From: Paraburkholderia sp. FT54
GTDB taxonomy: Bacteria > Pseudomonadota > Gammaproteobacteria > Burkholderiales > Burkholderiaceae
Length of the DNA stretch: 64,000 nt
Reading direction: 5' to 3'
Assembly (NCBI RefSeq): GCF_031585635.1
Contig: NZ_CP134195.1
Coordinates: 2,418,001-2,482,000 of the forward strand
Within the stretch, counting starts at the first letter, position 1; each line of letters begins with the position of its first letter. The notes below the pieces were generated by a model. It had not been told where the DNA came from. It did no database searches and worked only from the letters and a program-made list of their open reading frames with translations. Shown here in pieces: positions 9,832 to 64,000 of this stretch. The translations under genes were made by a program, and so were the position numbers.

Positions 9832-9835
9832 TCAC

Positions 9836-9851
9836 CTGTTCATACATACAG
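9836..9851 (+). promoter_or_regulatory. LexA (SOS) box 2
   Basis: CTGTTCATACATACAG begins exactly 20 bp after box 1 and ends 7 bp before the lexA ATG. The spacing of about two helical turns places both boxes on one face of DNA, as in other double-box lexA promoters. Confidence 0.9.
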
Positions 9852-9858
9852 TGGCGCC

Positions 9859-10509
9859 ATGACCAAACTCACCGCACGACAGCAGCAGGTTTTCGATCTG
9901 ATCCGCCGGGCTATCGAACGCACCGGCTTTCCGCCCACCCGCGCGGAGATCGCCGCCGAGCTGGGTTTCAGCTCGGCCAACTCGGCAGAAGAGCATCTGC
10001 GCGCGCTCGCTCGCAAGGGCGTGATCGAACTCGCGGCCGGCGCGTCGCGCGGCATTCGCCTGCTGGCCGGCCCGGAAGATTCGCCGTACCAGTTCACGTT
10101 GCCGCACGCCAGCATCATGCAACTGTCGCTGCCGCTGATCGGACGGGTGGCCGCGGGCAGTCCGATTCTCGCGCAGGAACATATCTCGCAGCACTACGCG
10201 TGCGACCCGGCGCTGTTCTCGAGCAAGCCCGATTACCTGCTCAAGGTGCGCGGACTGTCCATGCGCGACGCGGGCATCTTCGACGGCGACCTGCTCGCGG
10301 TGCAAAAGCGCAGCGAAGCCAAAGACGGCCAGATCATCATTGCCCGGCTGGGCGACGACGTCACGGTCAAGCGCCTGAAGCGCCGGCCGAACGGGCTCGA
10401 ACTGATCGCCGAGAACCCCGATTACGAAAACATCTTCGTTGAAACCGGCAGTGCGGAGTTCGCGCTGGAAGGCATCGCCGTGGGGCTCATTCGCCCCGGC
10501 GAGTTTTGA
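9859..10509 (+). CDS. lexA: LexA repressor, SOS response
   Basis: 216 aa. The N-terminal winged helix has [19 protein letters not shown] and [17 protein letters not shown], then the autoprotease domain: cleavage site VAAG (Ala99-Gly100), catalytic Ser134 in RGLSMRDAG, and Lys171 in DVTVKRLKR. RecA-stimulated self-cleavage lifts repression of DNA repair genes. I chose ATG 9859, directly after SOS box 2, over an in-frame start 60 bp upstream that would put both operators inside the coding region. Confidence 0.97.
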
Positions 10510-10581
10510 CCCTCCCGCTCGTTCGACAAAATAAAACGCCGCGCCAACGCCGCATCAACGCTGCATTGTCTGGAGAGTCTC

Positions 10582-10926
10582 ATGGAACGTCTTGCCCGCC
10601 TGCTGCCCTTTCGCCAGTTCGGTCGTCTGCGCCATCTTCGCAAGCTGGTACCCTGCTCATTGATCGAGGCGGCCACGCTCAGCACGCCGTCGCTGTTCGA
10701 TTCGCCCGACGCTGTGCCGAGCCTGCCGTCGTCGTTGCCGGCGTTTGCCCGCGTGTCGTTGAATTCGGGTTTGAATACGGCTGAACCGGCGCGTCGCGCA
10801 CCGGTGCGTGTTTATCACGGACCGTCGCGTCTCATCATGGTCGGCACGATGGAAGCCGTATGCCGCATGATCGACCGCTGCATCGCCGACGAGGCCAACG
10901 TGCATGGCGCGGTATTCGAGTCTTGA
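10582..10926 (+). CDS. Small hypothetical protein downstream of lexA
   Basis: 114 aa, family not recognised. The N-terminus is basic (MERLARLLPFRQFGRLRHLRK) and the middle is Ser/Pro/Ala-rich and probably disordered. The C-terminal 40 residues look folded: VRVYHGPSRLIMVGTMEAVC and RMIDRCIADEANVHGAVFES. The ATG follows GGAGAG in the 12-bp string TGGAGAGTCTCA, which recurs before the next gene. It lies 72 bp after lexA on the same strand with no clear terminator, so it may be part of the lexA transcript and SOS-inducible. It is not SulA by any motif I can see. Confidence 0.6.
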   Translation: MERLARLLPFRQFGRLRHLRKLVPCSLIEAATLSTPSLFDSPDAVPSLPSSLPAFARVSLNSGLNTAEPARRAPVRVYHGPSRLIMVGTMEAVCRMIDRCIADEANVHGAVFES

Positions 10927-11044
10927 TCTGTCTTGATGGCACTCGGCGAGTCTTGAACCGGACGGCAAGAGATTGCATTGCGTGGGATCGTTTTCGCGTG
11001 GCCGCGGTCCACGTTAGATCACACCTGATGGAGAGTCTCACTCG

Positions 11045-11713
11045 ATGGCAGTTCCGCAACTTACCAAAAGCGGCACCAAGGGCGGTGCTACCCGGCCGCT
11101 GATCATCACGCTGATCGTGATTGTAGTCATCGCCGCGCTGGGGTTCGCTTACGCGTCACCGTACATCGCGCTGAACAATCTCAAACGCGCTGCCGACGCG
11201 CGCGACGCGCAAACCGTCAATCAATACGTTGATTTCCCCGCATTGCGTGAGAGCCTGAAGCAGCAGGTCGCCGGCTTGCTGACGCGCCGGCTTGACGCGC
11301 ATGGCAACGGGAATCCGTTGGCCGCGATTGGCGCGATGATCGGCGTCGCGTTGATTGGTCCGCTCGTGGATGCCTATGCCACACCGGACGGCGTGGCGGC
11401 CTTGCTGAACGGCATGCCGCCGCGCGGCGATCCGGGCGAGCGGCCGCCCGCGCCGCCCGCCGCGAACAATCCGCCGGACGCCGCTGCGACTTCGCCCGCG
11501 CCAGCGCCGGCAGCGCCCACGGCCGGCAACGCACCCAATGGCAATGCCAACGCCGCGCCACCACAACCGCCGCAAACCACGGCGGGCTATCGCGGCATCA
11601 ACGAGTTCGTGGTCACCTACCAGCATGGCGCCGGCGACGCGCATTACTCGGCGATTTTTCAGCGCGAGGGTGCATTTACCTGGAAGCTGGCCGCGGTCAA
11701 CCTTAACGAGTGA
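11045..11713 (+). CDS. DUF2939 membrane-anchored protein
   Basis: 222 aa. One N-terminal membrane segment (about residues 19-38, LIITLIVIVVIAALGFAY) is followed by SPYIALNNLKRAADARDAQT, the start of the DUF2939 domain. A Pro/Ala/Asn-rich low-complexity linker runs from about 118 to 175, and a C-terminal piece reads FVVTYQHGAGDAHYSAIFQR. The bulk probably faces the periplasm. Function is unknown. GGAGAG precedes the ATG. Confidence 0.75.
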   Translation: MAVPQLTKSGTKGGATRPLIITLIVIVVIAALGFAYASPYIALNNLKRAADARDAQTVNQYVDFPALRESLKQQVAGLLTRRLDAHGNGNPLAAIGAMIGVALIGPLVDAYATPDGVAALLNGMPPRGDPGERPPAPPAANNPPDAAATSPAPAPAAPTAGNAPNGNANAAPPQPPQTTAGYRGINEFVVTYQHGAGDAHYSAIFQREGAFTWKLAAVNLNE

Positions 11714-48250: not shown

Positions 48251-50146
48251 TTACGCTTCCCCGAATAGACGAAACGCGCGCGCACGCTTTACAAGCCATT
48301 GCGTGGCTCTGGCACGCCGCCCACCGGCGCGCCGCGCGAGCGGTTCGCGGGCGGCGACGGTGTCGGGCACGCGGCTCTCGCTGAAGGTGCTGCGATAAAA
48401 CTGCTCGAAATACGACATCACGTTTTCCTGCGCGCTGGCTGACAGGATCGCGTGATCGGTGTGCTCGCAAAACGCCGCGCGAACGTGGTTAAAGCGCTGC
48501 AGCCGCGCGCCACGCACGCCGAAATGGCGTTCGAGTTCTTCGACGCCCTCGTCGAGCACGCCGTAGAGAAGCCGTGTCTCGACACGCTGATCATCCACCG
48601 CGGCGATGAGGCTACGCTCTTCCCGCGCACCGAGTTCGACGCCGCAAACACGTTCGATACGATCAGCGAGCGTCGCGCCGAAGCGCGCCGCGAAACGTCC
48701 CGCGAGTTCGCGCGCGACCGGCCATCCGCCCGACTGGCCCTTCAGCACGCGCAGCCATTTGCGCGGCTGGCACATCGAACGCAGATAAGTGCGCGTCGAA
48801 CCGAAAGCGGCCACCGCGACGCTCGGCTTGCCATGTTCGTCGCAGATGTTCTGCCATGTGAACTTCTGCAAATTGACCAGCACCGCGCCGGCCACTGCCG
48901 CTTCGCGCGCCGCGGCATGCAAGCCGACGTACGCGCCCGCGCAGATGCCGAGCAGCACCGCGCCGCGATGTCCTTGCGCGCTCAGCCAGCGTGCCGCGCA
49001 GGCGGCGTCGTCGACGCCCGACTGCGCGTACAGCGCGTCGAGGCTCAATGCATCCAGCGACGGCATGCTGTCGCCCAGACCGCCGAGATCGACGCGCAGC
49101 GACGCGATGCCCTGTTGCGCGAGACGCCTTGCAAAGCGCACGCCGAGCCGCGCATTGCCGATTCGGGAGACCGCCCCGGTATTGAGCAGCAGTGCTGCCG
49201 GCGCGGTGGCGGCGGTGCGAGCGTCAGGCCGGCAATAGATGCCGAACAGTCTGCCGCCGTCGATCCATACCGGCGTTTCGACTACACCGGGCTCAACGAC
49301 GTGAGCCGTGTCGTGATCGGCGGCGAAGTGGGCATTGTCGTTAGTGTCGCTAGTTGTGCCTGCATGCCCGGATGCAATCGCGCCGACCGTCAACCAGTTC
49401 TCTATGGACTGGAATGCCGCCTGCGGAATCTCGCTATCGAGCGACTCCATCATGAACTTGCCGTACTCGTCGAACGACTGCCGCTCGACTTCGATGCCTT
49501 GCTCGCGGTAGTGCGCGGCCAGTGCGTCGATCCGCACGGGGTCCAGCGAATCGAGCATGAGCACGCGACCGGCAGGCCGCGGTGCATCGCGTTTCAGATC
49601 GACGGCGCGCAGACTCTCCAACGTATCCTGATAGAGACGGAAGCCATATGCCTCGACAAAGGCATCGCCATCGGGTTCGGGCACGCAATCCATCGCGGCC
49701 GGAATCGACAGCCACTGTCGATAATGCGCGCGCAACTCGCGCTGATAGTTCCTGCCGGACAGCACGGGCGCGAGCAGCACGAGGCCGTCCACGCCACCGA
49801 GTTCCTGAGCGGCCAGCGCGGCGAGCGTGCCGCCGAGCCGCATGCCGCACAACGTCACGCGTTCGACACCGGTGGACTCGCGTAGCAGCGCCACGGCCTG
49901 CTTCACGCTGTCGATCCATGCGCGCCAGCGGCCGGGTTCGCTCGTCTCGCCTGCCGAATCGCCGGTGCCCGGATAGTCGAAGCGCAGCACCGGCATGCCG
50001 CGCGCGGCGAGCCGCTCGGCCAGCCTGCGCATGCCGCGATAAGTGCACAGCGAGTCGTAGCCGAACGGATAACACACCACCACGCCGTGCGGCCCGCTCG
50101 CCGGATGCAACCAGCCGAACTGGCCATCGAAGACTACTGGCCTCAC
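48251..50146 (-). CDS. Two-domain alpha/beta-hydrolase-like protein, nucleophiles replaced
   Basis: 631 aa. Domain 1 (about 1-250): VVCYPFGYDSLCTYRGMRRL, LRFDYPGTGDSAG, and the nucleophile elbow LCGMRLGGTLA, where Ser is Arg103. Domain 2 (about 285-500): LLLNTGAVSRIGNARLGVRF, LRVDLGGLGDSMPS and elbow LLGICAGAYVGLH with Cys402 for Ser. The C-terminal 130 residues are less clear. It recalls exosortase-A-associated hydrolases of glycan clusters, here fused in one chain. Start GTG 50146 with GGAG. No exosortase gene is visible. Confidence 0.8.
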   Translation of the reverse strand: MRPVVFDGQFGWLHPASGPHGVVVCYPFGYDSLCTYRGMRRLAERLAARGMPVLRFDYPGTGDSAGETSEPGRWRAWIDSVKQAVALLRESTGVERVTLCGMRLGGTLAALAAQELGGVDGLVLLAPVLSGRNYQRELRAHYRQWLSIPAAMDCVPEPDGDAFVEAYGFRLYQDTLESLRAVDLKRDAPRPAGRVLMLDSLDPVRIDALAAHYREQGIEVERQSFDEYGKFMMESLDSEIPQAAFQSIENWLTVGAIASGHAGTTSDTNDNAHFAADHDTAHVVEPGVVETPVWIDGGRLFGIYCRPDARTAATAPAALLLNTGAVSRIGNARLGVRFARRLAQQGIASLRVDLGGLGDSMPSLDALSLDALYAQSGVDDAACAARWLSAQGHRGAVLLGICAGAYVGLHAAAREAAVAGAVLVNLQKFTWQNICDEHGKPSVAVAAFGSTRTYLRSMCQPRKWLRVLKGQSGGWPVARELAGRFAARFGATLADRIERVCGVELGAREERSLIAAVDDQRVETRLLYGVLDEGVEELERHFGVRGARLQRFNHVRAAFCEHTDHAILSASAQENVMSYFEQFYRSTFSESRVPDTVAAREPLARRAGGRRARATQWLVKRARAFRLFGEA

Positions 50147-51281: not shown

Positions 51282-51614
51282 GGATGCCCCGAATACAGTT
51301 GTCGCTCAGGCTGCGTTGCGCTCTGGCTGACGAGCGGCGCTGGAGTCCGGCACGCTTCATTGTTAAACCCCGTTTGATGAATACGCGGGAAAACGCCGCC
51401 GCGCAGCACTACCTTCTGATGATTTGCATTTAACCCTGCCCGATGGAGAGTATCTGTACGGCCACACACATAGGCGTGCTGGGGCCTGAGGCAATATCGA
51501 AACCTGCGACGGGCCGACGCCGTCGAGTGAAGCGCGCTACAGGGTGCGACTGCGCACCGACAGCAGCCAGGGCTAACCACATCATTGCAGGAATTCAGAC
51601 CCGGACAGCGCACC
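51282..51614. promoter_or_regulatory. Divergent upstream region of the flippase and GT2 genes
   Basis: 333 bp without a supported gene. It is AT-richer near 51355-51435 (ATTGTTAAACCCCGTTTGATG, TTGCATTTAACC). Promoters for both directions are expected, but I cannot place them. Confidence 0.45.
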
Positions 51615-53078
51615 ATGGAAAGAAGTATCGTCAGGAACATCGTCATCAACTTCGCCGGAGCGATCGCTCCAACGTTCATCTCCCTCGTCACCGTGCCCGC
51701 CTACATTCACCTGATGGGCGTCGAGCGATACGGGGTGATCAATCTGGTGTGGACCCTGATCGGCTACTTCAGCGTGCTGGATCTCGGCACGAGTCTCGCC
51801 ACGGAAAATCAGATCTCCAAAGCGCGCGCCGCCAACGACGACTCGATAGAACGCATCTTCTGGAGCGCGTGGTTCATGAACCTGGCCACCGGCATCGTGG
51901 GCGGCCTGCTCATCTATCTCGGCACGGTCGTCTATATCACGCATGGCGTGAAGATCGAACCCGCCTTCCAGCGCGAAGTCATGGCGAGCCTGCCGTGGAT
52001 CGCGATCGCCGTGCCGATCGCCAATGTCTCCTGGGTGTTCGCCGGCGCGATCAACGGCGTGGAGCGCTTCACCAGTTTCAACATCAACCAGACGCTGGGC
52101 ACGGCTCTATTCCAGTTGCTGCCGTTGGCGGCGATCTTCTGCTTTTCGCCTTCGCTCGCGGTCGTGATTCCCGCGGCCGTGGTGGCGCGCCTCGTCGCCG
52201 GACTGATGCTCGGCGCGGCGGCATTTCGCGCGCTCGGGATTCGCCGCGTGCGGATGCCGCAATGGCCGGTGATGGTCGAACTCTTCCGCTATGGCCGCTG
52301 GATGCTGATGTTCTCGGGCGCCAACATGCTTGCCTCGACGCTCGACCGCGTGCTGGTCGGCGCGCTGCTCGGCGCGCGCTACGTGACTTACTACGCGACA
52401 CCGCAGAACCTCATTACGCGCCTGAATCTCTTGCCTGTCGCGATGGTGCGCACGCTATTCCCACGGCTGTCGGCCGTATCCCGTGCGGATGCCGACGCAT
52501 TGGCGCACAGCGCCCTCGCCTTTCTCAACGGCACGTTCACGCCGTGCGTGATCGTCGCGCTATTCGCGCTCAAGCCTTTCCTGTTGCTCTGGCTCGGACC
52601 GACGGTCGCGGCCGCCGCGCCAGTCGCGAGCGTGCTCGTGCTCGGCGTGTGGCTGAGCGGTCAATGCGGGATTCTGGGGATTCTGATCCAGGCGCAGACC
52701 AGTCCGGCCTCCCTCGCCACGGTAAGCTGGCTCGAATTGCCGGTGTTCGCCGGCGCGCTGTGGTGTGGGATTCACTGGTTCGGGATCATGGGCGCGGGCG
52801 TCGTCGTCACGCTGAAAATGCTATTCGACTACGCGGTGCTGCTGGTGTTCGCGAAACTGCACGCGTGGACCATCGTGCGCAATATGCTCGCTCACCTTGC
52901 GTTCCTGCTGGTGGCGCTAGTGCTCGCTGATTCGCTAAGCGAGTTGCCGGCACTCATCGTCGCGCCGCTGGTGCTGGTGCTCGCGAATCTGGGGATGTCG
53001 CTGCATGGGTCGAGTGAACTTCGCGGCGTGGTCTACAAGCTCTGGGCGCGGCTTACGCCGTCTACCAGCAGCAGTTGA
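51615..53078 (+). CDS. Wzx-like lipid-linked oligosaccharide flippase
   Basis: 487 aa, about 12-14 membrane segments. ATG 51615 (MERSIVRNIVINFAGAIAPT) matches the MATE/Wzx family start; MGVERYGVINLVWTLIGYFS, DLGTSLATENQISKARAAND and LARYVTYYATPQNLITRL-like sequence follow. It moves the lipid-linked repeat unit across the inner membrane. It is the only plus-strand gene inside the minus-strand glycan block and converges with a GT4 gene 49 bp away. Confidence 0.9.
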   Translation: MERSIVRNIVINFAGAIAPTFISLVTVPAYIHLMGVERYGVINLVWTLIGYFSVLDLGTSLATENQISKARAANDDSIERIFWSAWFMNLATGIVGGLLIYLGTVVYITHGVKIEPAFQREVMASLPWIAIAVPIANVSWVFAGAINGVERFTSFNINQTLGTALFQLLPLAAIFCFSPSLAVVIPAAVVARLVAGLMLGAAAFRALGIRRVRMPQWPVMVELFRYGRWMLMFSGANMLASTLDRVLVGALLGARYVTYYATPQNLITRLNLLPVAMVRTLFPRLSAVSRADADALAHSALAFLNGTFTPCVIVALFALKPFLLLWLGPTVAAAAPVASVLVLGVWLSGQCGILGILIQAQTSPASLATVSWLELPVFAGALWCGIHWFGIMGAGVVVTLKMLFDYAVLLVFAKLHAWTIVRNMLAHLAFLLVALVLADSLSELPALIVAPLVLVLANLGMSLHGSSELRGVVYKLWARLTPSTSSS

Positions 53079-53126: not shown

Positions 53127-54266
53127 TCAGATCGTAGTGGACTGCGTCACCGTGTCCGAAGCCGCCATACCACGCGTCGCAATACTCGCAAAACGGCGCG
53201 GCTGGCAACTGGCCAGCGTGCGTTCGTAAATCGACATATAGCCGTTGGTCACCCGCTGCACGCTGAATCGTTCGAGTTTGAGCGGCGCGCGCGCGGTGAG
53301 CGCCGCGTGTGCGGCCCGCTCGGTCAGGAGATGCCCGATCGCCTGCGCCAACGCTGCGGGATTTCTAGCCGGCACCAACAAACCGGCTTCGCCGCCGTCG
53401 AGCATCTCCGGATTGCCGTCCACGCGCGTCGCCACGATCGCACGTCCCAATTCACGCGCTTCGCACAGCACCAACCCGGCCGGTTCGTTGTGCGAGGCGA
53501 GCACGAACACGTCGGCCTGCGCGAGATACGCACGCGGGTCGGTGACAAAACCTTCGAAACGTACTCGCTCGGCGACACCCAGTTGTCCGGCCAGCGCTTC
53601 CATCGCGGCGCGGTCAGGACCATCGCCGACGAGATACAGCACCGCCTCCGGCACGCTTTCGCGCAACAGCGCAAAAGCATGCAGCAGATCGGCGATACCC
53701 TTGCGCTCATTCATGCCCGCCACGGTGACGATGCACGGATGCGCAAGCTGCGGCCCAACGGGCACCGGCGTGTCGGCAAAACGCGGCGTGCCGACCGTGC
53801 CGTTGCGCACGACGCTCAGACGCGCATTCGGAATGCCGCGCCGCTCCATCGCCACGGCCACCGCGGCGCTCACCGCCACCACGTGATCGCCGACGCCCAT
53901 CAGCGTGGCGCTGCGCTGAAACTCGTTGTGCACCGTCGTGATCAGCACGTAGCGCCGCCGCAGCACGCTCACGCGAGCGATCAGCGCGCCGGTCATCATG
54001 TGAGCGTGCACGACATCGGGATCATATTGCGCGACGAGCCGCCTGAAACCCGCCACCATCCCCGCGACGCGCGACGGTTTGGGCAATTGCGGCAGCAGCA
54101 CATGACGCACACCGTATCGCGCCAGCAGCGTTTCAAAGCCGCCGCCCGCCGACGCCACCGTCACGTCGTGGCCGGCGCGCGCCTGCGTGCAGGCAAGGTC
54201 GATCATCACGTTGACGATGCCGTTGCCGATGCATTGCGCGTGATTAGCTAGATGGATGATTTTCAT
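53127..54266 (-). CDS. Glycosyltransferase family 4
   Basis: 379 aa. GT-B fold: MKIIHLANHAQCIGNGIVNV then VVHAHMMTGALIARVSVLRR, VAGMNERKGIADLLHAFALL, YLVGDGPDRAAMEALAGQLG and the donor Glu motif ASHNEPAGLVLCEARELGRA. ATG 54266 lies inside the last 23 bp of the upstream secreted-protein gene. It ends the GNAT-to-GT operon. Confidence 0.9.
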   Translation of the reverse strand: MKIIHLANHAQCIGNGIVNVMIDLACTQARAGHDVTVASAGGGFETLLARYGVRHVLLPQLPKPSRVAGMVAGFRRLVAQYDPDVVHAHMMTGALIARVSVLRRRYVLITTVHNEFQRSATLMGVGDHVVAVSAAVAVAMERRGIPNARLSVVRNGTVGTPRFADTPVPVGPQLAHPCIVTVAGMNERKGIADLLHAFALLRESVPEAVLYLVGDGPDRAAMEALAGQLGVAERVRFEGFVTDPRAYLAQADVFVLASHNEPAGLVLCEARELGRAIVATRVDGNPEMLDGGEAGLLVPARNPAALAQAIGHLLTERAAHAALTARAPLKLERFSVQRVTNGYMSIYERTLASCQPRRFASIATRGMAASDTVTQSTTI

Positions 54267-56676
54267 GGAGTCCACGCAACAGTAGTGAAATGGGAAGAGC
54301 CGCGGCAAGCGGCGCGCTCGGTGGGGTGAAGCGATACATCAGCGCTTTGCCGTATGCGTCTTCTTCCACCAATACGAGGTATTCGCCCGAGGCGAGGCGA
54401 TGGGCCGTCATCGGCATCGGCACGTCGACCCAGCCGCTCGTCGAGCCGACTTCCTTGCCGGGTGAGAGGCGACCCACATCGCGTCCGGTGGCGCGGTCGT
54501 AGACACGCACCACGGCGCCGCGCGTTTCGACGGCGAACACGTAGTCGCCCGCCACGGCGAAACCGTTGATCGACGACCAGTCCGGCGCGCCGCGATCGGG
54601 CAAGCCGATCACATAGCGCAGCACGGGTTTGCCGCTCTTCCAGTGGTCGTAGCGCGCCAGCTGCGAACCCGCGCCATTCCAGTTCTCCCTGACGAAGGGA
54701 TGCGCGGGCGTCGAACCGGAGACGAACATCGTGTCCTCGTCGGGGAAGTAATTCAGGCGCGCGATCCGGGTGAACGGCGCGGGCGCCGCGTATTGCCGCA
54801 TCGACGCGTAGCGGTAGACCGGATTGCCGACGCGGTCGAAGCCCTGCAACGGAAAGCAGCGAATGCCCTGCGACTCCGTGCCCTGCCAGATGTCGCCGTG
54901 GCTATCCACCCACCAGCCGCGCATTTGCGGCGCGTCGGTATCGTGGGCGTTCTGGTCGAATGCCGCAGCGGAAAAGTCACCCTTGCCCGTCACGTCGCGC
55001 CAGATCCATTCGCCTTGCGGCGGCTGGTTGGGCGGCCACGCGCCGTCGATATGCGCCTGCGTGAAGAGTCCCGAAGGAATCGCGGTCTCGCGATCGTCGG
55101 CGAAACGATAGATCCTCAGAAACGACGAGTACATGTCCGTCGTATAGAGCAGCCGGTGACCGCGCACGTCGCGCACCATCGGCATGCCGCGCTGAGCGCC
55201 GAGGTACAGATGAAAATACGGATCGTACGGATAGCGGAAACGGTCCGCGGTGTAGCCGGCATACGACCACTCCTGCCCGGGCGGACGCGAAAGGTCGAGC
55301 TTGAAGCGCTTACTGCCGCTATACACCGAAGGCGGCTCGCCATCCACGAACTGCGCGCCGTCGACGAACAGCAGCCCCTGCAAACTGAAGCGCTGCTTGC
55401 CGTCGGGCGTATAGCTTTCGAGCAATGCGCCGTCGTAGGTGCTCGGGCCCGTGCCGAACGGGCGCGGACCCGCGCCGTTCATCGACACATAGAGGTTGCC
55501 GCTGCGATCGACACCCACGCCGGTCAGGCCATTGAAGCGCCGCGGTCCTGGCGCGCCGGCGCGGCCTGCGTAGATGCCGCCCTCCTGTCCGAAGCTCGCT
55601 GACAGTTGCATGCCTGCTCCCTGTTGAGACGCGGCGCCCGCCGTTGCACCGCGGGCCGCGGTGAAGATCAGGATCTGCTGACGCACGCCGTTGTCGGCGA
55701 TCAACAGGCGTCCACGCGTGTCGACCGTCAGATCCACCGGCACCACGCCGTCGGGCAATGCGAGTTCGCCAATGCGTGTGCCATCGCGCGCATGGTGAAC
55801 CACGCGGCGCGCGCCGTCTGTGCGGCTGTTCTCAATGATCCACAGCGAGCCGTCAGGCGCGAGCGCAAGCCGGCTGGGCTCGTGCACCGGGAATGCGCCG
55901 ACCGCCTGCATGGTTTGAGCGTCATACACCTGCACGCGGTTATCGAGCAGGTTCGAGACAAAGAGCCGCGTGTCGTCCGCCGCGAGGCCGCGCACCGCAT
56001 AGTCGGTCTTGTCGGAATAGGTGGAGATCAGCAGATACGCCAGCCGGCTGCCGGCGGGAAATTTCACCTGGCCGGCGAACGGCACGCCGTCGCGAATGTC
56101 GGCGCGGCTGCGGCGCGCCACGCCCGTCCATGCTTCGCCCTCATGCGGCGTCGCGCGATGCTTCGCCTCCTCGTTGCCGAGGCTGACCATGGTTTGCGCG
56201 ACGTACACGTATTCGCTGTTCACGGCAATCGCGTCGCCGCCCATCACGCCCCAGCCGTGCGACTCGCCGCCGTGGCGCACCAGTTGGCCGTTGCGGTATT
56301 GGCCGACTTCTCCGCCGCCTTCGTCCCAGGGCGCGTTCGTGAATACGTCGCCGTCCGGCGTGACGGCGAGTGCCTGCACGTCGATCTGCATCCAGCGATG
56401 ATCGGCGTAGCCCCACGTGTTGCCGATCCACGAGGTTCGGTAGGAAAGCGAAGGATGTGCCGACGCCGCTTGCGCCTCGGCGGCGGGGCGGCTGGCTGCG
56501 GCCACGGTCGTTGCGGTTGTCGGTGCCGTGGCCGTGGCTGCCGCGGCTTCCGTGGCTAGCGCCGGTTCATGCAGCGTGCCGTCCGAACCGCCCACCGCGA
56601 TCAGCACCAGCACCGGCAACACCACGGCTGCGACGCACACGAGGCGTTCGAAGGTTTTGCGTGCCGGGCTTCGCAT
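54244..56676 (-). CDS. Large secreted or anchored beta-propeller-like protein
   Basis: 810 aa. ATG 56676 (MRSPARKTFERLVCVAAVVL) begins a signal anchor (about residues 9-29). An Ala/Thr-rich linker follows to about 70, then repeated propeller-like blades (LAVTPDGDVFTNAPWDEGGG, VRGLAADDTRLFVSNLLDNR, LALAPDGSLWIIENSRTDGA, DLTVDTRGRLLIADNGVRQQ, VGVDRSGNLYVSMNGAGPRP). These resemble NHL/SMP-30-type repeats. It probably sits in the periplasm and may bind the glycan. No catalytic motif seen. Confidence 0.75.
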   Translation of the reverse strand: MRSPARKTFERLVCVAAVVLPVLVLIAVGGSDGTLHEPALATEAAAATATAPTTATTVAAASRPAAEAQAASAHPSLSYRTSWIGNTWGYADHRWMQIDVQALAVTPDGDVFTNAPWDEGGGEVGQYRNGQLVRHGGESHGWGVMGGDAIAVNSEYVYVAQTMVSLGNEEAKHRATPHEGEAWTGVARRSRADIRDGVPFAGQVKFPAGSRLAYLLISTYSDKTDYAVRGLAADDTRLFVSNLLDNRVQVYDAQTMQAVGAFPVHEPSRLALAPDGSLWIIENSRTDGARRVVHHARDGTRIGELALPDGVVPVDLTVDTRGRLLIADNGVRQQILIFTAARGATAGAASQQGAGMQLSASFGQEGGIYAGRAGAPGPRRFNGLTGVGVDRSGNLYVSMNGAGPRPFGTGPSTYDGALLESYTPDGKQRFSLQGLLFVDGAQFVDGEPPSVYSGSKRFKLDLSRPPGQEWSYAGYTADRFRYPYDPYFHLYLGAQRGMPMVRDVRGHRLLYTTDMYSSFLRIYRFADDRETAIPSGLFTQAHIDGAWPPNQPPQGEWIWRDVTGKGDFSAAAFDQNAHDTDAPQMRGWWVDSHGDIWQGTESQGIRCFPLQGFDRVGNPVYRYASMRQYAAPAPFTRIARLNYFPDEDTMFVSGSTPAHPFVRENWNGAGSQLARYDHWKSGKPVLRYVIGLPDRGAPDWSSINGFAVAGDYVFAVETRGAVVRVYDRATGRDVGRLSPGKEVGSTSGWVDVPMPMTAHRLASGEYLVLVEEDAYGKALMYRFTPPSAPLAAALPISLLLRGLHENHPSS

Positions 56677-56689
56677 GATCACAGGTGCA

Positions 56690-57847
56690 TCAGAACGCGC
56701 TGATCGCTTCGCGATAGACGTCCGCGACCTGCGCGGCGACCACCGGCCGGTCGAAATGCGCGCTCGCGTACGCGCGGCACGCCTCGGCATCCGGCAGCAC
56801 GCGCCGGCCGAGCAGGACATCGGTAATCCCTTCGGCGATCGACCGGAACCCGCTCGAAGGCAGCACCAGTTCGGACGACAGCGGCGCCACCGCTTCCGGC
56901 AGGCCGCCGACCGGCGTCACCAGCACCGGCGTGCCGGTCGCGAGCGATTCGATCGTGGTGAGCCCGAAGCCTTCGAGCGACACCGTCGGCACCACCGACA
57001 GATCCGAGGCGCGATACCACAGCGGCACTGTCTCGTCCGGCACGAAGCCCGCCAACCGGACATTGCGCTCCAGGCCGCGCGAGACGATGCGCGCCCGCAA
57101 CTGTTCTTCCAGCGGACCCTTTCCGGCGATGATCAGCAGTACGTCCGGGATTGTCGGCTTGACGAGCGCCATGGCGTCGATCAGATCCTCGAGTCCCATA
57201 CGCGACACGAGACGCCGCATGCAAAACAGCAGCGGCCGGTCCTGCGGCAAACGCAGGCGAGCGCGCGCCTGCTGCTGCGTCGCTCGCGGATTGAAATGCG
57301 CCACGTCGACACAACCCGGCACGATACGAATGCTGTCCTCGCTTACGCCATAGGTCTCGTGCAGCAGCCGGCCGAACGCCCGCGAGAGCACGATATGCCG
57401 CGTCCCGCTGCGATACACGAAGCGCTCCAGCGCGACCCGCGCCGCGCGCGTCCAGCCGCCACCGCCGCCCGGAAACGATTCGGCCGCCCACGGTCCGTGA
57501 AAATGCACGACTTTCGGCACGCGGCGGAATACGCCCACGGTCGGCGCCGTGTACAGCGCGAAATGCGAGGCGACGACATCGGGCATCTTCGCCGCCCGCA
57601 GCGCGCGCGATTGCACACGCGAGCCCCACAGCCGCGTGCCGAGTTGCGACTGCGCGCCGGCGAAGGCCAGCACGCGGCCACCCGACGCGTCGAACACGCC
57701 CGGCGTGCCCGCCACCATGCCGCGTACATTGACGCCCTGGGCGGGCAGCGTATCGATCAGCGCCTTGAACATGCGGTCGAGGCCGCCCGGCCTCTCGTTG
57801 AACCAGTGCATACCGATTTGCAGCGACTCGATCGGCGTATCGCTCAT
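56690..57847 (-). CDS. Glycosyltransferase family 4
   Basis: 385 aa. GT-B fold: GMHWFNERPGGLDRMFKALI, VVHFHGPWAAESFPGGGGGW, HIVLSRAFGRLLHETYGVSE, PLLFCMRRLVSRMGLEDLID, and the donor Glu motif SLEGFGLTTIESLATGTPVL. ATG 57847 overlaps the upstream gene stop by 4 bp. It lies 13 bp before the propeller gene. Confidence 0.92.
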   Translation of the reverse strand: MSDTPIESLQIGMHWFNERPGGLDRMFKALIDTLPAQGVNVRGMVAGTPGVFDASGGRVLAFAGAQSQLGTRLWGSRVQSRALRAAKMPDVVASHFALYTAPTVGVFRRVPKVVHFHGPWAAESFPGGGGGWTRAARVALERFVYRSGTRHIVLSRAFGRLLHETYGVSEDSIRIVPGCVDVAHFNPRATQQQARARLRLPQDRPLLFCMRRLVSRMGLEDLIDAMALVKPTIPDVLLIIAGKGPLEEQLRARIVSRGLERNVRLAGFVPDETVPLWYRASDLSVVPTVSLEGFGLTTIESLATGTPVLVTPVGGLPEAVAPLSSELVLPSSGFRSIAEGITDVLLGRRVLPDAEACRAYASAHFDRPVVAAQVADVYREAISAF

Positions 57848-59037
57848 AGCTCCACCGACGCGGTTGCGCGAGCCGTCGGCAACTCGCGCGACGTGCGCCG
57901 CGCATGCACCTGTTCATAGACCGACAGATACCGCCCGGCCATGGCCTGCCAGCTCAGGTTGCCCGCCACCGCGCGTGCGGCGAGGCCAAGACGCCGCGCG
58001 TAATCCGGTTCCCTGGCGAGATGTTCGATCGCCACGGCGAGCGCGGCGGCGTCGTTGGGGTCGTCGAGCACGATCCCGCTGCCGCACGTGATCACTTCCG
58101 CGCCGCCCGCGGTGCGCACGGTGATGACCGGCAGTCCGGCGGACAGCGCTTCGAGCAGCACGAGTCCCATCGGTTCGTAGCGCGAGGGAAATACGAACGC
58201 GTCGACCGAACGCATCAACGCGGCCATGTCCATCACCATGTCGGTGAAGTGAACCCGGTGCGTCAACCCGAGCGACTCCACCAGCGCGGGATACGGACTG
58301 TTGTGGAGAATCCCCGCGACTGCCAGGTGCACGTCAGGGGACGTGCGCGCGAGCGCATGCAGGACCGTGTCGAGATTCTTGCGCGACATGCGCAGGTCGC
58401 CGGCGAACAGCAGCATGAACGGCGCTTGCGGCAGGTTGAAGCGCGCGCGTTCCGGCGCACCGGGCGTAAATTCGCCGACATCGACACCGTTATGAATCAC
58501 CTCCACGCGTGCCTTGCCGATGCCGAGCGCGCGAACCTCGCCGGCCACTTTCTGCGAGACCGGCACGATCACTTCGGCGTGCCGGAACGCCCATTTCTCG
58601 CACACGATATTCAGCAACGTGTAGACGACCTGGTAAGCGTGATACAGGTTGTGCAGCAGCCGGAACGGATAGAAGCCGCAGCGATACCAGCCGTCGTGAA
58701 CGAAATGCACCGCGTTGACATCGGCACGCGCCCACGCAATGAAGCCGTTCACGTGCACCACATCGAATTCGTCGCGATGTCCGCGAATCCATGCGCCGCA
58801 GTGCCACGCGAACATCTGGTACTGGAGCAGCCTGCTCGGCAAGCGGCTGGTGGCGACCTGCACGAAACGCACGTGCGGATGCTCCACCAGCTCAGGCGCC
58901 GCCTCGGCGGCGAGCAGCGTCACCGAATGGCCGGCGGCGAGCGCCGCGCGCACGATCTCGTAGTTGACCCGCCCCTGTCCGTCGTTTTTGCGCACGACAT
59001 GGGTGACGATCAGAATCCGCATCCTCTTGTCCTTCAT
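57844..59037 (-). CDS. Glycosyltransferase family 4
   Basis: 397 aa. GT-B fold: MRILIVTHVVRKNDGQGRVN, VVHVNGFIAWARADVNAVHF, VEVIHNGVDVGEFTPGAPER, FMLLFAGDLRMSRKNLDTVL and donor motif PSRYEPMGLVLLEALSAGLP. ATG 59037 (MKDKRMRILI) overlaps the preceding stop (ATGA); the second Met is possible. Confidence 0.92.
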   Translation of the reverse strand: MKDKRMRILIVTHVVRKNDGQGRVNYEIVRAALAAGHSVTLLAAEAAPELVEHPHVRFVQVATSRLPSRLLQYQMFAWHCGAWIRGHRDEFDVVHVNGFIAWARADVNAVHFVHDGWYRCGFYPFRLLHNLYHAYQVVYTLLNIVCEKWAFRHAEVIVPVSQKVAGEVRALGIGKARVEVIHNGVDVGEFTPGAPERARFNLPQAPFMLLFAGDLRMSRKNLDTVLHALARTSPDVHLAVAGILHNSPYPALVESLGLTHRVHFTDMVMDMAALMRSVDAFVFPSRYEPMGLVLLEALSAGLPVITVRTAGGAEVITCGSGIVLDDPNDAAALAVAIEHLAREPDYARRLGLAARAVAGNLSWQAMAGRYLSVYEQVHARRTSRELPTARATASVEL

Positions 59038-60593
59038 CTGGATATCTTGTGGTTTCGCAGCGAAGCGACGGCGGCGGCGCCCTGGCGTTCACGCGCGTAG
59101 CGCAGCGAAATCACCGGCAGCGTCACGCCAAGAAAGAAAAACATCCCCGACACGGAGACGAGCGTGTTGATGAAAATCATCATCGAGAAAATCGCCACGG
59201 CTACGCCGACGCCGGAAATCGCCAGCAGGTCGGTCGGATGCAGACGGCTCGCGCGGTACGCGCGCCACAGCAGCATGAGGACGCCGGTGGCGTACAGCAG
59301 CGTGCCTGGCCAGCCCATCACGAAGGGCACTTCCATCAGCCCGCTGTCGAAATCGAGCATCGCCGTCGACGATTTATCGTCGGACAGCTTGGTGCCGAGA
59401 CCGGTAGTGCCGAGCCCCTGCCCCGCGATGTCGGTGAACGCCGAGGAGAAAAAGGTCTTGTAGAACTCCGCGCGCGCCTGATAGCTGTTGTCCTGGCCGA
59501 GGTTCTGCATCGTGCTGAAGCGCTGCATCACCGGTTCGGCGACCTGATCGATCATCAACAGCGGCGTCGCCATCACGGCCAGTCCCAGCACGCCGGCAAC
59601 CAGACGCATACGGCTCTTGCCGTCGAGCATGAGGAACGAATACGCGAGCGCAATCGCAAAGCCGCCCCACGTGCTGCGCGCGCTGGTGAGCAGCAGCACG
59701 GGAATCCCCACGCAGCCCAGCACGATGCGCGTTTTGCCGCGCGCCGCGAGCGACATCAGCAGAATCGTCATGAGCGTGACCGCGAACGGGCCGCACGAAT
59801 TCATCGTGCTGCTCACGCGCATGCCGAATGGCACCGGCTGTCCTTCGGATTGCATCTTCGAGGCGATCAGCCAGAACGCGTCCCACGGCATCGGCGAAAC
59901 GAATTCGATGATGCCGTACACGCTCATCAGCAGTCCGCCATACACGAACGTCTTCAACAACACGCGGTGATAGGCGGGATAGTGGCGCCACGTGACGGTG
60001 AGATAGAACGCCACCATCACGGGATACAGCCAGTTGATGAGCGTGTAGGTCGCGGGCGCCGGACCGGCCTGCGCGACGCCGACCACATACGCATACAGCA
60101 ACGCGGCCACGATCAGCACGAGCGGCGCCGCGCGGCGCTGCCCGAGCAGCGAGACATGTTTGAGCAAGGTCAGGCCGGTGAGCGCGACGGCCAGCAACGG
60201 CGCGATCATGATCGGACTCTGATCATTGAACGCACCATTGACGAAGTCCGCGAGACGGCGCACTTCCGGCGTCAGGAAAAACAGCCAGCAGACAAAGCCG
60301 AGGTAATGCGCGGGCGAGCGCCAATACAGCACCAACGCGACACCGAACGCGCCGAGCGGAAAGAAGTATTCGACCAGCCTGCCCTGATGCAGCGCGATCA
60401 GTCCCAACGTCACTGCGAAGAGCAGCAACGGCAGCCGCAGTGGATGACGCAAGCCCCTGGCCTGCGAGCGAGCGGCCGGCGCGGCGAGCGTGGACGAAAA
60501 CGCCGCGCCGGGCGCAGCGCGTGGCTTGTCCGGCATCGGGCCCGGGAGTGCGACCTGTGCGCTGGAAGGCGTGACGAGCATGCGGTCCATCAC
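59034..60593 (-). CDS. O-antigen ligase/polymerase-type membrane protein
   Basis: 519 aa, about 10-12 membrane segments and a large periplasmic loop (about 330-390: QRFSTMQNLGQDNSYQARAE, LGTTGLGTKLSDDKSSTAML). TSARSTWGGFAIALAYSFLM resembles the Wzy_C/WaaL domain (RSTW..). It could polymerise repeat units (Wzy) or ligate them. As the only such gene beside a Wzx, polymerase is more likely. ATG 60593 overlaps the GNAT stop. Confidence 0.83.
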   Translation of the reverse strand: MMDRMLVTPSSAQVALPGPMPDKPRAAPGAAFSSTLAAPAARSQARGLRHPLRLPLLLFAVTLGLIALHQGRLVEYFFPLGAFGVALVLYWRSPAHYLGFVCWLFFLTPEVRRLADFVNGAFNDQSPIMIAPLLAVALTGLTLLKHVSLLGQRRAAPLVLIVAALLYAYVVGVAQAGPAPATYTLINWLYPVMVAFYLTVTWRHYPAYHRVLLKTFVYGGLLMSVYGIIEFVSPMPWDAFWLIASKMQSEGQPVPFGMRVSSTMNSCGPFAVTLMTILLMSLAARGKTRIVLGCVGIPVLLLTSARSTWGGFAIALAYSFLMLDGKSRMRLVAGVLGLAVMATPLLMIDQVAEPVMQRFSTMQNLGQDNSYQARAEFYKTFFSSAFTDIAGQGLGTTGLGTKLSDDKSSTAMLDFDSGLMEVPFVMGWPGTLLYATGVLMLLWRAYRASRLHPTDLLAISGVGVAVAIFSMMIFINTLVSVSGMFFFLGVTLPVISLRYARERQGAAAVASLRNHKISR

Positions 60594-61123
60594 AGCAACT
60601 CGAACGTGTTGACGAGCACCGCGCTGCCGCGCTCACGGCACCGCCCACCGAAAAGCGGCTGACTGGCGCGCAGCTGGCGCGTGAGCCCGATGAACGGCAC
60701 GCCGTGTTCGAGGTACGGCCCTTCCGTCTTGCGAAAGCCGAATTGCTCATAGAAGCCGCGCAGATTGAGCGGCGCGCTGACCCGCGCGGCATGTCCCGGC
60801 CAACGCTCGGCGATCGCCTGCAGCACGCGTTCGAGCAGCAGTTCGGCGGTGCCGTCACCGCGGCGCAGCGGGCTCGTCAGCACCTTGTCGATGGTGATCT
60901 CCGGATCTTCCGCGTCGCCGGGTTGCAGGCGCGCGTAAGCGAGAATCGGCATCGACCGCGACATGTCCTCCACGGCGAACACGTGCAGCGCGTTCTCGTC
61001 ACGGCCATCCGCATCGAGACAAACATGCGATTGTTCGACCACGAACACCGCGCTGCGCGCCCGCAAGATCAGATACAACTCGCGAGCCGAAAGCTGATCG
61101 AATTCCAGCGTTTTCCAGTTCAT
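60590..61123 (-). CDS. GNAT-family acetyltransferase, ElaA-like
   Basis: 177 aa. MNWKTLEFDQLSARELYLIL then RSAVFVVEQSHVCLDADGRD (ElaA-like start), the acetyl-CoA segment VLTSPLRRGDGTAELLLERV, and LNLRGFYEQFGFRKTEGPYL with EHGVPFIGLTR. It is the first gene of the minus-strand glycan operon and shares a promoter region with the carrier-protein module. It could use acetyl-CoA or, less conventionally, an aminoacyl-carrier as donor. Confidence 0.85.
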   Translation of the reverse strand: MNWKTLEFDQLSARELYLILRARSAVFVVEQSHVCLDADGRDENALHVFAVEDMSRSMPILAYARLQPGDAEDPEITIDKVLTSPLRRGDGTAELLLERVLQAIAERWPGHAARVSAPLNLRGFYEQFGFRKTEGPYLEHGVPFIGLTRQLRASQPLFGGRCRERGSAVLVNTFELL

Positions 61124-61483
61124 CACGTTCCCCAGCGGTCAATAAGTTCATCGAGGCCGGCATCGCGTGCCGGCTTTGACGGCCTGGCTGCATAGGCCGG
61201 CCCGTTCTGATGGCTACACGGTACGTCCGCGAAACGCGTGTTTCCGTGCGCCATCGCACTGACGCTGGGCTTTGACAATTCTTAAATACGGACATCGGGG
61301 CACGGCATGGCAGGACGCCCCCTGACACCGCACGCAGTCACTGTGAACGCGCCGCGTCCGGCAAACGGGGACCACGCGGGGACCACGCCGGCCCGCGCGC
61401 GGCAATCGACACAAATAACGATCACGTGCGTTCGATCGATGTTCGCAACATCCGAGACCGTTGAACAACTGGGGGACCACACC
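61124..61483. promoter_or_regulatory. Bidirectional region between the glycan operon and the carrier-protein module
   Basis: 360 bp with no supported gene. TTGACAATTCTTAAATACGG (61273-61292) holds a perfect TTGACA -35 but no clear -10 within 16-18 bp. An AT-richer ATAACGATCACG stretch lies at 61415. Promoters for both operons should lie here. Confidence 0.45.
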
Positions 61484-61735
61484 ATGAAAACCGCATTGCG
61501 ACGCATCCTTTCCGAATCGGCCCGCCTGGATGTCCCGCCGGACACCCTGGCCGACGACGCCGACCTGTACGCCGCGGGGCTTTCCTCGCTCGCGACCGTG
61601 CATCTGATGCTGGCAATCGAAGATGAATTCGGCATTGAGATCCCGGACCGTCTGTTGACGCGCCGGCTGTTCTCCAGCATCGATTCGATGGCTGCCGCGG
61701 TCACCGAGCTGCAACAGGCGAAGGCGGCAGCATGA
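61484..61735 (+). CDS. Acyl/aminoacyl carrier protein
   Basis: 83 aa, the size of an ACP. Four-helix pattern with the phosphopantetheine site DADLYAAGLSSLATVHLMLA; Ser34 of GLS is the attachment residue, in a GLSS rather than DSL context. EDEFGIEIPDRLLTRRLFSS is the typical acidic helix II-III. GGGGGACC precedes the ATG. Its stop overlaps the dehydrogenase start (ATGA). It is the likely substrate of the amino acid:CP ligase two genes on, by context. Confidence 0.9.
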   Translation: MKTALRRILSESARLDVPPDTLADDADLYAAGLSSLATVHLMLAIEDEFGIEIPDRLLTRRLFSSIDSMAAAVTELQQAKAAA

Positions 61736-63018
61736 ACGCCCCGCTGCTGGACGCGGCGGCGGCAGCCGCCCCTATGCAGGCGCACGATGCGGTTGCAGGC
61801 GCCGACGCGTCGGTGGTGCTGACCGCTGTCGAAACCGAACCGGGCTGGCGCGCGGCCGCGCAACGCTGTGCAGCGGTGGCCGCGCAGTTCGCGGACTCCG
61901 TGGACCGCGAGGCGCGTTTTCCGAGCGAAGCATTCGAGGCGCTCAAGCGCGAGTGCCTGCTCTCGGTGATGGTGCCTGCCGAGTTCGGTGGCGCCGGCCT
62001 GTCGCTCGCGGACGTCGGCGCGATTTGCGAAACGCTCGCGCAAGGCTGCGCGTCCACCGCCATGGTGTATGCGATGCACCAGATCCAGGTGGCGTGTATC
62101 GAGGCGCATGGCAGCGACGCGGTATGGCATCGGCAGTTGCTCGTGCAACTGGTCAAGCAGCAGTGGCTGCTGGCGTCGGCCACTTCCGAGGAAACCATCG
62201 GCGGCAATATGCGCACCAGCGCCTGCTCGGTCGAATTCGACGCTGCGCGCTTTCGCATCGAAAAGCTCGCACCGACGATTTCGTACGGCGCGCACGCCGA
62301 CGGCATTCTCGTCACCGCGCGCCGCACCGCTGAATCGGCAGCCGCCGACCAGGTGCTGATCGTCGCGTTGCGCGGCGATACGCAACTGGAAAAGCGCGGC
62401 GGCTGGGATTCGATGGGCATGCGCGGCACCTGCAGCGAGGGCTTCCGGCTCGTCGCCACGGGTCTGGCCGAACAGATCCTGCCGACACCCTTCGCCGAGA
62501 TCGCCGATCAGACCATGCTGCCGGTCTCGCACACGTTGTGGGCCTCGGTTTGGACCGGCGTGGCCACTGACGCCGTCAATCGCGCGAAAGCGTTCTTCCG
62601 CGCACAAGCGCGTTCGAAGCCCGGTGCGATTCCACCCGCTGGTTTGCGCCTCGCTGAAGCGGTCGGTCTGCTGCAAATGATGCAGGCGCGCCTAGCGGTT
62701 GCGCTGGAGGCGGCACGCGCCGCTCACCAGGCACGCCACGGCGGCTCGCAGGCCGATGCGCCGCTCGCGGCCATGCTCGGCTTCGCCTCCGACATGAACA
62801 CGCTGAAGACGAGCATTTCCACCACCGCGCTGCAGGTCGTTCACGAGGTGCTGATGATCTGCGGCATGGCGGGCTACAAGAACGGCACACCGTACAGCGT
62901 CGGGCGCCATTTGCGCGATCTGCACTCCGCGCCGCTGATGATCAATAACGACCGTATTGCGCAGAACACCGCGAGCCTGTTGCTCGCGCAACGTCCTGCC
63001 GCCCCGGGGAGAGCCTGA
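61732..63018 (+). CDS. Acyl-CoA dehydrogenase-like flavoprotein
   Basis: 428 aa. N-terminal helical domain (EAFEALKRECLLSVMVPAEF, GGAGLSLADVGAICETLAQG, TAMVYAMHQIQVACIEAHGS), middle domain LLASATSEETIGGNMRTSAC, and C-terminal helices with VHEVLMICGMAGYKNGTPYS then GRHLRDLHSAPLMINNDRI. Such enzymes oxidise acyl-CoA or, in the PltE/RedW type, prolyl groups on carrier proteins. Placed between a carrier protein and an aminoacyl:CP ligase, a carrier-bound substrate is likely here. It lies one base before the next gene. Confidence 0.88.
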   Translation: MNAPLLDAAAAAAPMQAHDAVAGADASVVLTAVETEPGWRAAAQRCAAVAAQFADSVDREARFPSEAFEALKRECLLSVMVPAEFGGAGLSLADVGAICETLAQGCASTAMVYAMHQIQVACIEAHGSDAVWHRQLLVQLVKQQWLLASATSEETIGGNMRTSACSVEFDAARFRIEKLAPTISYGAHADGILVTARRTAESAAADQVLIVALRGDTQLEKRGGWDSMGMRGTCSEGFRLVATGLAEQILPTPFAEIADQTMLPVSHTLWASVWTGVATDAVNRAKAFFRAQARSKPGAIPPAGLRLAEAVGLLQMMQARLAVALEAARAAHQARHGGSQADAPLAAMLGFASDMNTLKTSISTTALQVVHEVLMICGMAGYKNGTPYSVGRHLRDLHSAPLMINNDRIAQNTASLLLAQRPAAPGRA

Positions 63019-63019
63019 C

Positions 63020-64000
63020 ATGAATACGATGACCGATACCGCCGCCCTCGCAGCCGCCGCTCAGCAAGCCGAGGCGCCGAACTTTCGCGACGAACTGCTG
63101 GCCGCGGGCCTGTTGATCGATACAGGCGAAAACGGCCTGTACGGCCGCAGCCAGGTTTTCGAAGACGTGGTGGACCGTCTGAATGTGGCGATCACGCATC
63201 TGGGCGCGGACCAGCAGCCGGAAGTGCTGCGCTTTCCGCCCGCCATGCGCCGCACCGACTTCGAAGACAGCGAGTATCTGAAGAGCTTCCCGAATCTGGC
63301 GGGCACGATCCACTCGTTCTGCGGCAACGACATGGGCCATCAGCGCCTGTTGCGCGCCCTCGACGACGCCATGACCGAACGCGACGACGACCGCAGCGAC
63401 GACTGGATGGCGCAGCAGAAGCCGACCCGCGTGGTGCTCACGCCGGCCGCCTGCTACCCGATCTACCCGGTGATGGCGCGGCGCGGTCCGTTGCCCGCCG
63501 ACGGCCGCACGATCGACGTGCTGTCGTATTGCTTCCGTCACGAACCCTCGCTCGATCCCGGCCGCATGCAGATGTTCCGCCAGCGCGAGTACGTGCGACT
63601 CGGCAGCGGCGAACAGGTGATGGCATTCCGGCAGATGTGGATCGAGCGCGGCTCGCTACTCGTGAAGCTGCTGCAATTGCCGGTCGAAGTGGACCTCGCC
63701 AACGACCCGTTCTTCGGCCGCGGCGGCAAGATTGTCGCCGATAGCCAGCGTGCCCAGGCGCTCAAGTTCGAACTGCTGATTCCGGTCGCCGACCCGCGCG
63801 GCAAGACCGCGTGCCTGTCGTTCAACTATCACATGGAACACTTCGGCGCGATCTGGAAGATCGCGTGCGAAGACGGCACGGTTGCGCATACCGGCTGTGT
63901 TGGTTTCGGCATGGAACGCATCACACTCGCGCTATTCCGTCATCATGGACTCGACGTCGACACGTGGCCGGACGACGTGCGCGCGCTGCTGTGGGGCGAT
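63020..64000 (+). CDS. Amino acid:[carrier protein] ligase (truncated seryl-tRNA synthetase homologue), cut by the window end
   Basis: 327 codons are visible with no stop. The chain has class II synthetase motifs: a motif 2 region YCFRHEPSLDPGRMQMFRQR with EYV next, and motif 3 TGCVGFGMERITLALFRHHG. It lacks a tRNA-binding coiled-coil arm. Cys145, Glu190 and Cys293 have the same spacing (45 and 103) as the zinc ligands I recall for the Bradyrhizobium glycine:CP ligase (131, 176, 279). Those enzymes activate a small amino acid with ATP and load it on a carrier protein. This sits one base after the dehydrogenase gene, in the carrier module. Confidence 0.92.
   Translation, partial: MNTMTDTAALAAAAQQAEAPNFRDELLAAGLLIDTGENGLYGRSQVFEDVVDRLNVAITHLGADQQPEVLRFPPAMRRTDFEDSEYLKSFPNLAGTIHSFCGNDMGHQRLLRALDDAMTERDDDRSDDWMAQQKPTRVVLTPAACYPIYPVMARRGPLPADGRTIDVLSYCFRHEPSLDPGRMQMFRQREYVRLGSGEQVMAFRQMWIERGSLLVKLLQLPVEVDLANDPFFGRGGKIVADSQRAQALKFELLIPVADPRGKTACLSFNYHMEHFGAIWKIACEDGTVAHTGCVGFGMERITLALFRHHGLDVDTWPDDVRALLWGD

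Follow-up and report, generated by a model that had tools for sequence, protein, structure and literature searches.

What does an enzyme resembling a tRNA synthetase do among the genes for a surface polysaccharide? This question is raised by the end of a 64,000-nucleotide stretch of Paraburkholderia sp. FT54 (the window; G000:C1:2418001-2482000, part of an 8.6-Mb genome; G, C and L number our genomes, contigs and loci), which encodes a carrier protein (CP), a flavoprotein of the acyl-CoA-dehydrogenase (ACAD) fold and an amino acid:[carrier protein] ligase one behind the other. Structures and in vitro activity of such ligases have been available since 2010, and we know of no end product assigned to them. 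We propose, with a probability of roughly 0.5, that a five-gene module loads a small amino acid on the CP, oxidises it and gives it to an amine, likeliest on a sugar of a surface polysaccharide; we infer every reaction, the amino acid and the acceptor from the gene set, its linkage, its domains, the conserved residues and the predicted fold.

The CP gene (61484-61735, plus strand) encodes 83 residues, including Ser35 in the motif GLSSL as the phosphopantetheine serine (NF005480, PF00550). It shares a 4-bp ATGA overlap with the ACAD gene (61732-63018, plus strand; 428 residues; PF02771), which is separated by a 1-bp gap from the ligase gene (window-equivalent 63020-64084, plus strand; L001:2021-3085; NF005479), starting with ATG at 63020, encoding 354 residues and cut by the window end at 64000. 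The coordinates thus bear out the three-gene plus-strand arrangement described in an earlier, sequence-only reading of this DNA. The notion that these three genes form the whole unit was rejected, since two more genes complete it past the window end: in the next 20 kb, a second 4-bp ATGA overlap joins the ligase to a DUF1839 gene (window-equivalent 64081-65154, plus strand; PF08893, 445 bits), followed by a gene with GH2 domains (window-equivalent 65171-67828, plus strand), for which either TTG or GTG is the uncertain start.

In a set of 78 Burkholderiaceae loci, from Paraburkholderia, Caballeronia and kin, 75 have all five genes following one another in this order, on a single strand and within 8 kb, and because the order recurs in this way the arrangement is not a matter of chance. 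The three exceptions are L107, without a CP match, and the short loci L087 and L109, of 3.5 and 10.5 kb. The same order was found in all 19 further loci with both DUF1839 and ligase, namely 13 (L138-L150) and the six plasmid loci (L158-L163) of Caballeronia, Mycetohabitans, Azospirillum, Rhizobium and Phyllobacterium; alignment A2 is without L145, which is included in the conserved-residue counts. Among 398 genomes of the phylum, 28 carry a ligase over the cut-off and 16 carry DUF1839, all of them among the 28. Six loci with a ligase and no DUF1839 (L151-L156) contain ACAD and ligase genes and no GH2, with a weak CP match on the opposite strand in five and none found in the sixth; the ligase of L151 reaches 714 bits to 3mey (Bll0957). 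A 37-row ligase tree, whose root was set for drawing only, unites these six in one clade (100/100), and the module-type ligases stand apart from them at 94/92, just under the 95 mark.

The CP scores 125 bits to NCBIfam NF005480 (cut-off 72), and all 101 rows keep its serine. The ligase scores 535 bits to NF005479 (cut-off 357) and 282-288 bits to chains 3mey and 4h2w of Bll0957, which, with Atu2573, was reportedly described as an amino acid:[carrier protein] ligase by Mocibob et al. in 2010. Residues 145/190/293, read earlier as having the spacing of zinc ligands, are Cys/Glu/Cys and near-invariant: of 105 rows, 103, 105 and 105 keep them, and both misses are due to gaps where a row is truncated. 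C145 aligns with C151 of the tagged chain 3mey, which we take to be native C131, provided that the tag is 20 residues, and C131 is presumably one of the published zinc ligands. The ligase matches seryl-tRNA synthetase (SerRS) over the C-terminal core alone (residues 137-322) and has no N-terminal tRNA-binding domain; the absence of a tRNA-binding arm, likewise claimed before, agrees with this limited match and the length of 354 residues. The earlier grouping of an amino acid:CP ligase with a partner CP and a flavoprotein presumably acting on the carrier-bound amino acid is also supported. In the first step of the proposed mechanism, the ligase would adenylate a small amino acid, either Gly or Ala, before loading it on the phosphopantetheine of the 83-residue CP.

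For the flavoprotein, the sequence-only reading had suggested dehydrogenation of the CP-bound amino acid, as PltE and RedW perform on prolyl-CP, so that an unsaturated or imino acyl group would decorate the glycan. The PltE/RedW family uses a catalytic Glu at the canonical base position. The window ACAD scores 24.4 bits to the RedW family against a cut-off of 650, and a Streptomyces ACAD beside a relative of the ligase (L239) scores 373 bits. At the position of E254 in isovaleryl-CoA dehydrogenase (IVD) it reads Ser266, with S/A/T/C in 101 of 102 rows and one gap, and at the position of E376 in medium-chain acyl-CoA dehydrogenase (MCAD) it reads Ile404, with I/V in 102 of 102, so that neither canonical base position holds a carboxylate. 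Membership in the PltE/RedW family was rejected on both the score and the missing Glu; the parallel drawn earlier did not hold, and dehydrogenation of this type appears unlikely to us. It keeps some probability because the top profile match, 7p98, reads Thr at the second canonical base position and nevertheless bears the name of a dehydrogenase. In the second step, the ACAD-fold flavoprotein would oxidise the CP-bound aminoacyl group, oxygenation being a likelier route than α,β-dehydrogenation.

The function of DUF1839 was approached through a predicted model of the protein from P. xenovorans, whose strain LB400 (L034) has the same module (89% identity to the DUF1839 of the window genome; 79 sequences, pLDDT 85.6); the model matches CcbD, AziU3 and CtaG far above all else. 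In the model, a helix starts at Cys71 (Cys61 in the window genome), Thr169/170 belong to a strand, and the strand after it finishes at His187; Cys71, His166, Thr169/170 and His187 are conserved in the DUF1839 locus set. CcbD is a carrier-dependent amide synthetase that moves CP-tethered proline to its own cysteine and from there to a sugar's amino group (PMC12945683). The model makes DUF1839 a likely transferase, papain-like and CcbD-like. In the third step it would, working like the lincosamide synthetase CcbD, take the oxidised group onto its cysteine (Cys61) and pass it to an amine, most likely that of an amino sugar or a lipid-linked glycan intermediate in the cytoplasm. A papain-like fold in general would also suit a thioesterase or protease, which would release the amino acid once oxidised or act on a peptide attached to a glycan, and a role in processing glycans at the cell wall was suggested in a survey of 2023 (PMC10318531); given the choice, we consider such a hydrolytic role for DUF1839 improbable.

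The cysteine also varies with the ligase. It is present in 118 of 124 ligase-adjacent DUF1839 rows (some genomes repeated), a count used instead of 94 of 96, which was taken from the best-scoring DUF1839 per locus and favours intact copies. Genomes with two DUF1839 copies belong to the Cupriavidus-like genus g3, plus one of g24; 17 were read, and G166 (fragments) was left out. The second copy, on the opposite strand, keeps Cys in 17 of 17 (that of G002 lies on another contig), and Arg or Gln replaces it in the ligase-adjacent copy in 16 of 16. Cupriavidus metallidurans CH34 shows the same split, and the single-copy g3 genomes with a ligase (G079/L236 and G115/L237) keep Cys. Among 19 DUF1839 loci without ligase and GH2, Cys is lost in 18, comprising 14 in genus g10, whose genomes carry a complete ligase elsewhere, and L213, L214, L217 and L218. 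These counts take in 14 of the 16 Cys-poor second copies in g10 and four of the six family genomes with DUF1839 only (G006, G098, G152 and G167, not G166 and G179). The DUF1839 cysteine is tied to a working ligase, as seen from few independent events.

DUF1839 lacking the cysteine persists without ligase in L199-L212 and L218, of genus g10, and in L213, L214 and L217. In L199-L212 all 14 copies adjoin homologues of WcaJ and of a group-1 glycosyltransferase; L214 and L217 also hold EPS-type (exopolysaccharide) matches, and L213 holds none. Of the 78 Burkholderiaceae loci, 62 have a Crp-like regulator (here L001:7189-8193), as does each of the 19 examined DUF1839 loci that lack the ligase; the regulator therefore outlasts the rest of the module.

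Glycan-type open reading frames (ORFs), detected with 13 query proteins, occur in 70 of 77 Burkholderiaceae loci (those of at least 10 kb; the one under 10 kb was left out) versus 3 of 20 control regions, which were chosen by hand and partly from the same genomes (p 8e-11, relatedness ignored), and in one of seven loci without DUF1839. The association with a polysaccharide locus, proposed before from the window alone, stands in the Burkholderiaceae and falls as an obligate one, with 7 of these 77 and 11 of 16 more distant loci having no glycan-type ORF. Within the named Burkholderiaceae the link to glycan genes is genuine; beyond them it is unproven.

The loci without recognised glycan ORFs bear on another explanation, in which the module makes a free small molecule (a signal, an antimetabolite or a protected metabolite), DUF1839 uses a small amine and the glycan neighbours are incidental. 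Complete modules of this kind were seen in loci of Caballeronia grimmiae, Azospirillum, Phyllobacterium and Rhizobium rhizoryzae; CtaG, another match of the DUF1839 model, acts on non-sugar amines; and a CP-ACAD-ligase set on a Priestia plasmid adjoins genes for an ATP-grasp enzyme, D-Ala-D-Ala ligase, alanine racemase and alanine permease. On the other side, GH2 is present in all 19 further loci with DUF1839 and ligase, EPS genes surround most Burkholderiaceae copies, and the Priestia locus showed no DUF1839 or GH2 and so seems to represent another pathway built on the shared core. We regard a free product as a possible, rather doubtful outcome. The Priestia megaterium locus itself (L165, 712-15686) combines CP, ACAD and ligase with a holo-ACP (acyl carrier protein) synthase, a thioesterase and the ATP-grasp enzyme, which is L-amino acid ligase-like, along with the alanine genes and a ComX-type gene set in between; from its gene content, it has the appearance of a cluster for making an alanine antimetabolite and for self-resistance to it.

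Several observations weigh against the proposed transfer of an oxidised amino acid to a surface polysaccharide. Of the 16 more distant loci, 5 (including that of Mycetohabitans) hold glycan-type ORFs, versus 3 of 20 controls (p 0.22 with the 13-protein query set), and the scan of window genes, which covered part of the window, recognised none for an amino-sugar pathway. The 200 family genomes include 79 with both ligase and DUF1839, six with DUF1839 only and five with the ligase only. The cysteine is present in 57 of 79 DUF1839 relatives taken regardless of context, and the ligase-less locus L238 keeps it; in the 17th two-copy genome (G123, L215) the copy expected beside the ligase sits away from it, retaining Cys and having lost the K-T-T motif; and the small number of independent events limits the whole pattern. 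The fold comparison of the predicted ACAD model with the PDB ties monooxygenases (class D: DszC, KijD3) and dehydrogenases, and no flavin reductase is found among the five module genes. The DUF1839 triad has been published as C-(T/S)-H (PMC10318531), not Cys-His-Glu, and the DUF1839 sequence profile finds no CcbD in the PDB at E up to 10. CcbD was found by fold and not by sequence; therefore, we say that DUF1839 may work like CcbD and do not file it as a member.

The surface-polysaccharide proposal has a more specific form, which we put forward tentatively: an oxygenated (e.g., N-hydroxylated) glycyl or alanyl group, made on the CP by a flavin oxygenase, would be put on an amino sugar of the EPS or of a glycan intermediate by a CcbD-like synthetase. 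To our knowledge, such an oxygenated aminoacyl decoration of the surface by a tRNA-synthetase descendant has not been described so far.

The fourth step would belong to GH2 and, in many loci, to an exosortase-type double α/β hydrolase, which may trim or proof-read. GH2 aligns with β-mannosidases, and E462 and E543, aligned to 2je8, are each kept in 94 of 95 rows; the corresponding residues of 2je8 are, we assume, the acid/base and nucleophile Glu. GH2 is thus a putative β-mannosidase-like enzyme with both catalytic Glu present, and no hydrophobic signal stretch was seen in it. The double α/β hydrolase is a neighbour of the module in 13 of the 16 distant loci, compared with none of the 20 control regions and none of the 7 loci that lack DUF1839; among the 77 Burkholderiaceae loci, 17 show it within the stretch covered. 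It resembles the exosortase-A-associated hydrolases 2 and 1 (TIGR03101 and TIGR03100) in fused form, below both cut-offs; this also holds for the two halves of the window's 40% identical homologue (48251-50146, minus strand). The double hydrolase of Rhizobium sp. NLR16a also carries a polysaccharide-transporter domain. In L163 (14776-18087) a polysaccharide-transporter (Wzx-like) domain is fused to a double α/β hydrolase, a second paralogue exists in the window's genome (G000:C1:1898572-1900275), and the 591-residue ORF beside GH2 in L240 is not a double hydrolase.

On the CP side of the module, mostly on the opposite strand, there are a divergent GNAT acetyltransferase (60590-61126, minus strand; NF007644 below cut-off; homologue in 60 of the 78 Burkholderiaceae loci), an O-antigen polymerase/ligase-like Wzy_C protein (59034-60593, minus strand; below the Pfam cut-off), two group-1 glycosyltransferases (56690-59037, minus strand), an NHL-repeat protein and a third group-1 glycosyltransferase (53127-54308, minus strand). 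Farther out lie a Wzx-type flippase (51585-53078, plus strand), a GT2 protein, the double hydrolase and ManC. Past GH2, the Crp-like regulator is followed by a WcaJ-type sugar transferase, a GT2 protein and a Wzc-type kinase; with EPS genes on both sides, the module therefore sits inside an EPS locus. The intergenic region between the GNAT and CP genes (61127-61483) is a putative promoter region for the plus strand, in which a scan found no sigma-70-like site; the single sigma-54-like site of the window, at 23293, is far off and at chance level (0.36 expected).

Published data give hints of a phenotype. In the EPS cluster becA-R of Burkholderia pseudomallei, the acyl-CoA dehydrogenase gene becG lies two genes away from one for a cyclic-nucleotide regulator, and the becG transposon mutant has reduced biofilm (0.84 vs 1.25); three of the 18 bec genes were not found in that screen, becF as well as becM and becO, which the library lacked (PMC5507470). 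The order WcaJ, Crp, Crp, CP, ACAD, ligase, DUF1839, GH2 in B. cenocepacia L240 suggests by analogy that becF-becJ are this module, with polar effects possible in the becG mutant. As published, the biofilm polysaccharide of B. cenocepacia H111 is built from a repeating unit with no amino sugar and no amino acid (PMC7084887); this does not test the idea, because the Bep cluster table, in the passages covered, names no module genes (PMC3584217). In a Bradyrhizobium phaR mutant, bll0957 and the acd gene bll0958 are both up (PMC10888616).

A 2010 note added in proof had already placed a CP, a redox enzyme, a conserved unknown protein, a glycosidase and liposaccharide genes around the ligase family, predicted for the unknown protein, Atu2574, a role in joining the amino acid to a cell-surface sugar at an amino group, and held that the redox enzyme probably acts by monooxygenation (PMC2922099). 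Independently of that note, DUF1839 had suggested itself to us as a possible BtrH-like acyltransferase and the flavoprotein as a possible monooxygenase. Our suggestion of an amino-sugar acceptor rests, by analogy, on that note and on CcbD. What is added here is the CcbD-like predicted fold, the cysteine pattern and the missing catalytic base, together with two ligase clades, the double hydrolase and counts with controls. An experimental test of the pathway was not found in the literature searched, most subscription papers lying outside the search. The CcbD-like predicted fold and the cysteine lost along with the ligase would give this ligase family a testable role and a defined acceptor class; if true, the proposal connects the evolution of tRNA synthetases with the chemistry of surface glycans in Burkholderiales of soil, plant-associated and clinical origin.

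Among known systems, Dlt and AlmEFG also bring a CP-loaded amino acid to a surface glycan, but their ligase and transferase families are other than those of the module and they have no redox step. ZmaGHIJ is an aminomalonyl-ACP cassette in which CP, ACAD and amino acid activation stand side by side, as in the module and in its relative L239 (Streptomyces sp. NBC_00984 plasmid, 6353-11222), which encodes a SerRS-like ligase (32% identical), a 3-hydroxyacyl-CoA dehydrogenase, a CP, an ACAD and an acyltransferase. From these genes, L239 looks like an aminomalonyl-ACP cassette in which a tRNA-synthetase-like enzyme replaces the adenylation domain; unlike the window ACAD, its ACAD is RedW/PigA-like, has by our reading a Glu at the base position and lies beside the 3-hydroxyacyl-CoA dehydrogenase. 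On a Tsukamurella plasmid (L164, 5731-15900), a ligase, a CP and a phosphopantetheinyl transferase stand among EPS genes, and no ACAD, DUF1839 or GH2 was found in that stretch. The Bll0957 and Atu2573 ligases share NF005479, the zinc ligands, the lack of a tRNA-binding arm and a partner CP with the window ligase, but Bll0957 belongs to the sister clade without DUF1839 and GH2; the Agrobacterium ligase with the neighbour Atu2574 appears, from what PMC2922099 names, to be of the window's type. In the lincosamide system (LmbC/LmbN-CP/LmbD and CcbC/CcbZ-CP/CcbD), as in the module, there are a stand-alone activation enzyme, a CP and a papain-like enzyme, there an amide synthetase that couples an amino acid and an amino sugar (PMC12945683, PMC4351081). 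DUF1839 and CcbD are alike in predicted fold, with no sequence similarity detected; activation is performed by an adenylation domain in the lincosamide system, whereas the window module has a tRNA-synthetase-like ligase, plus the extra flavoprotein and GH2.
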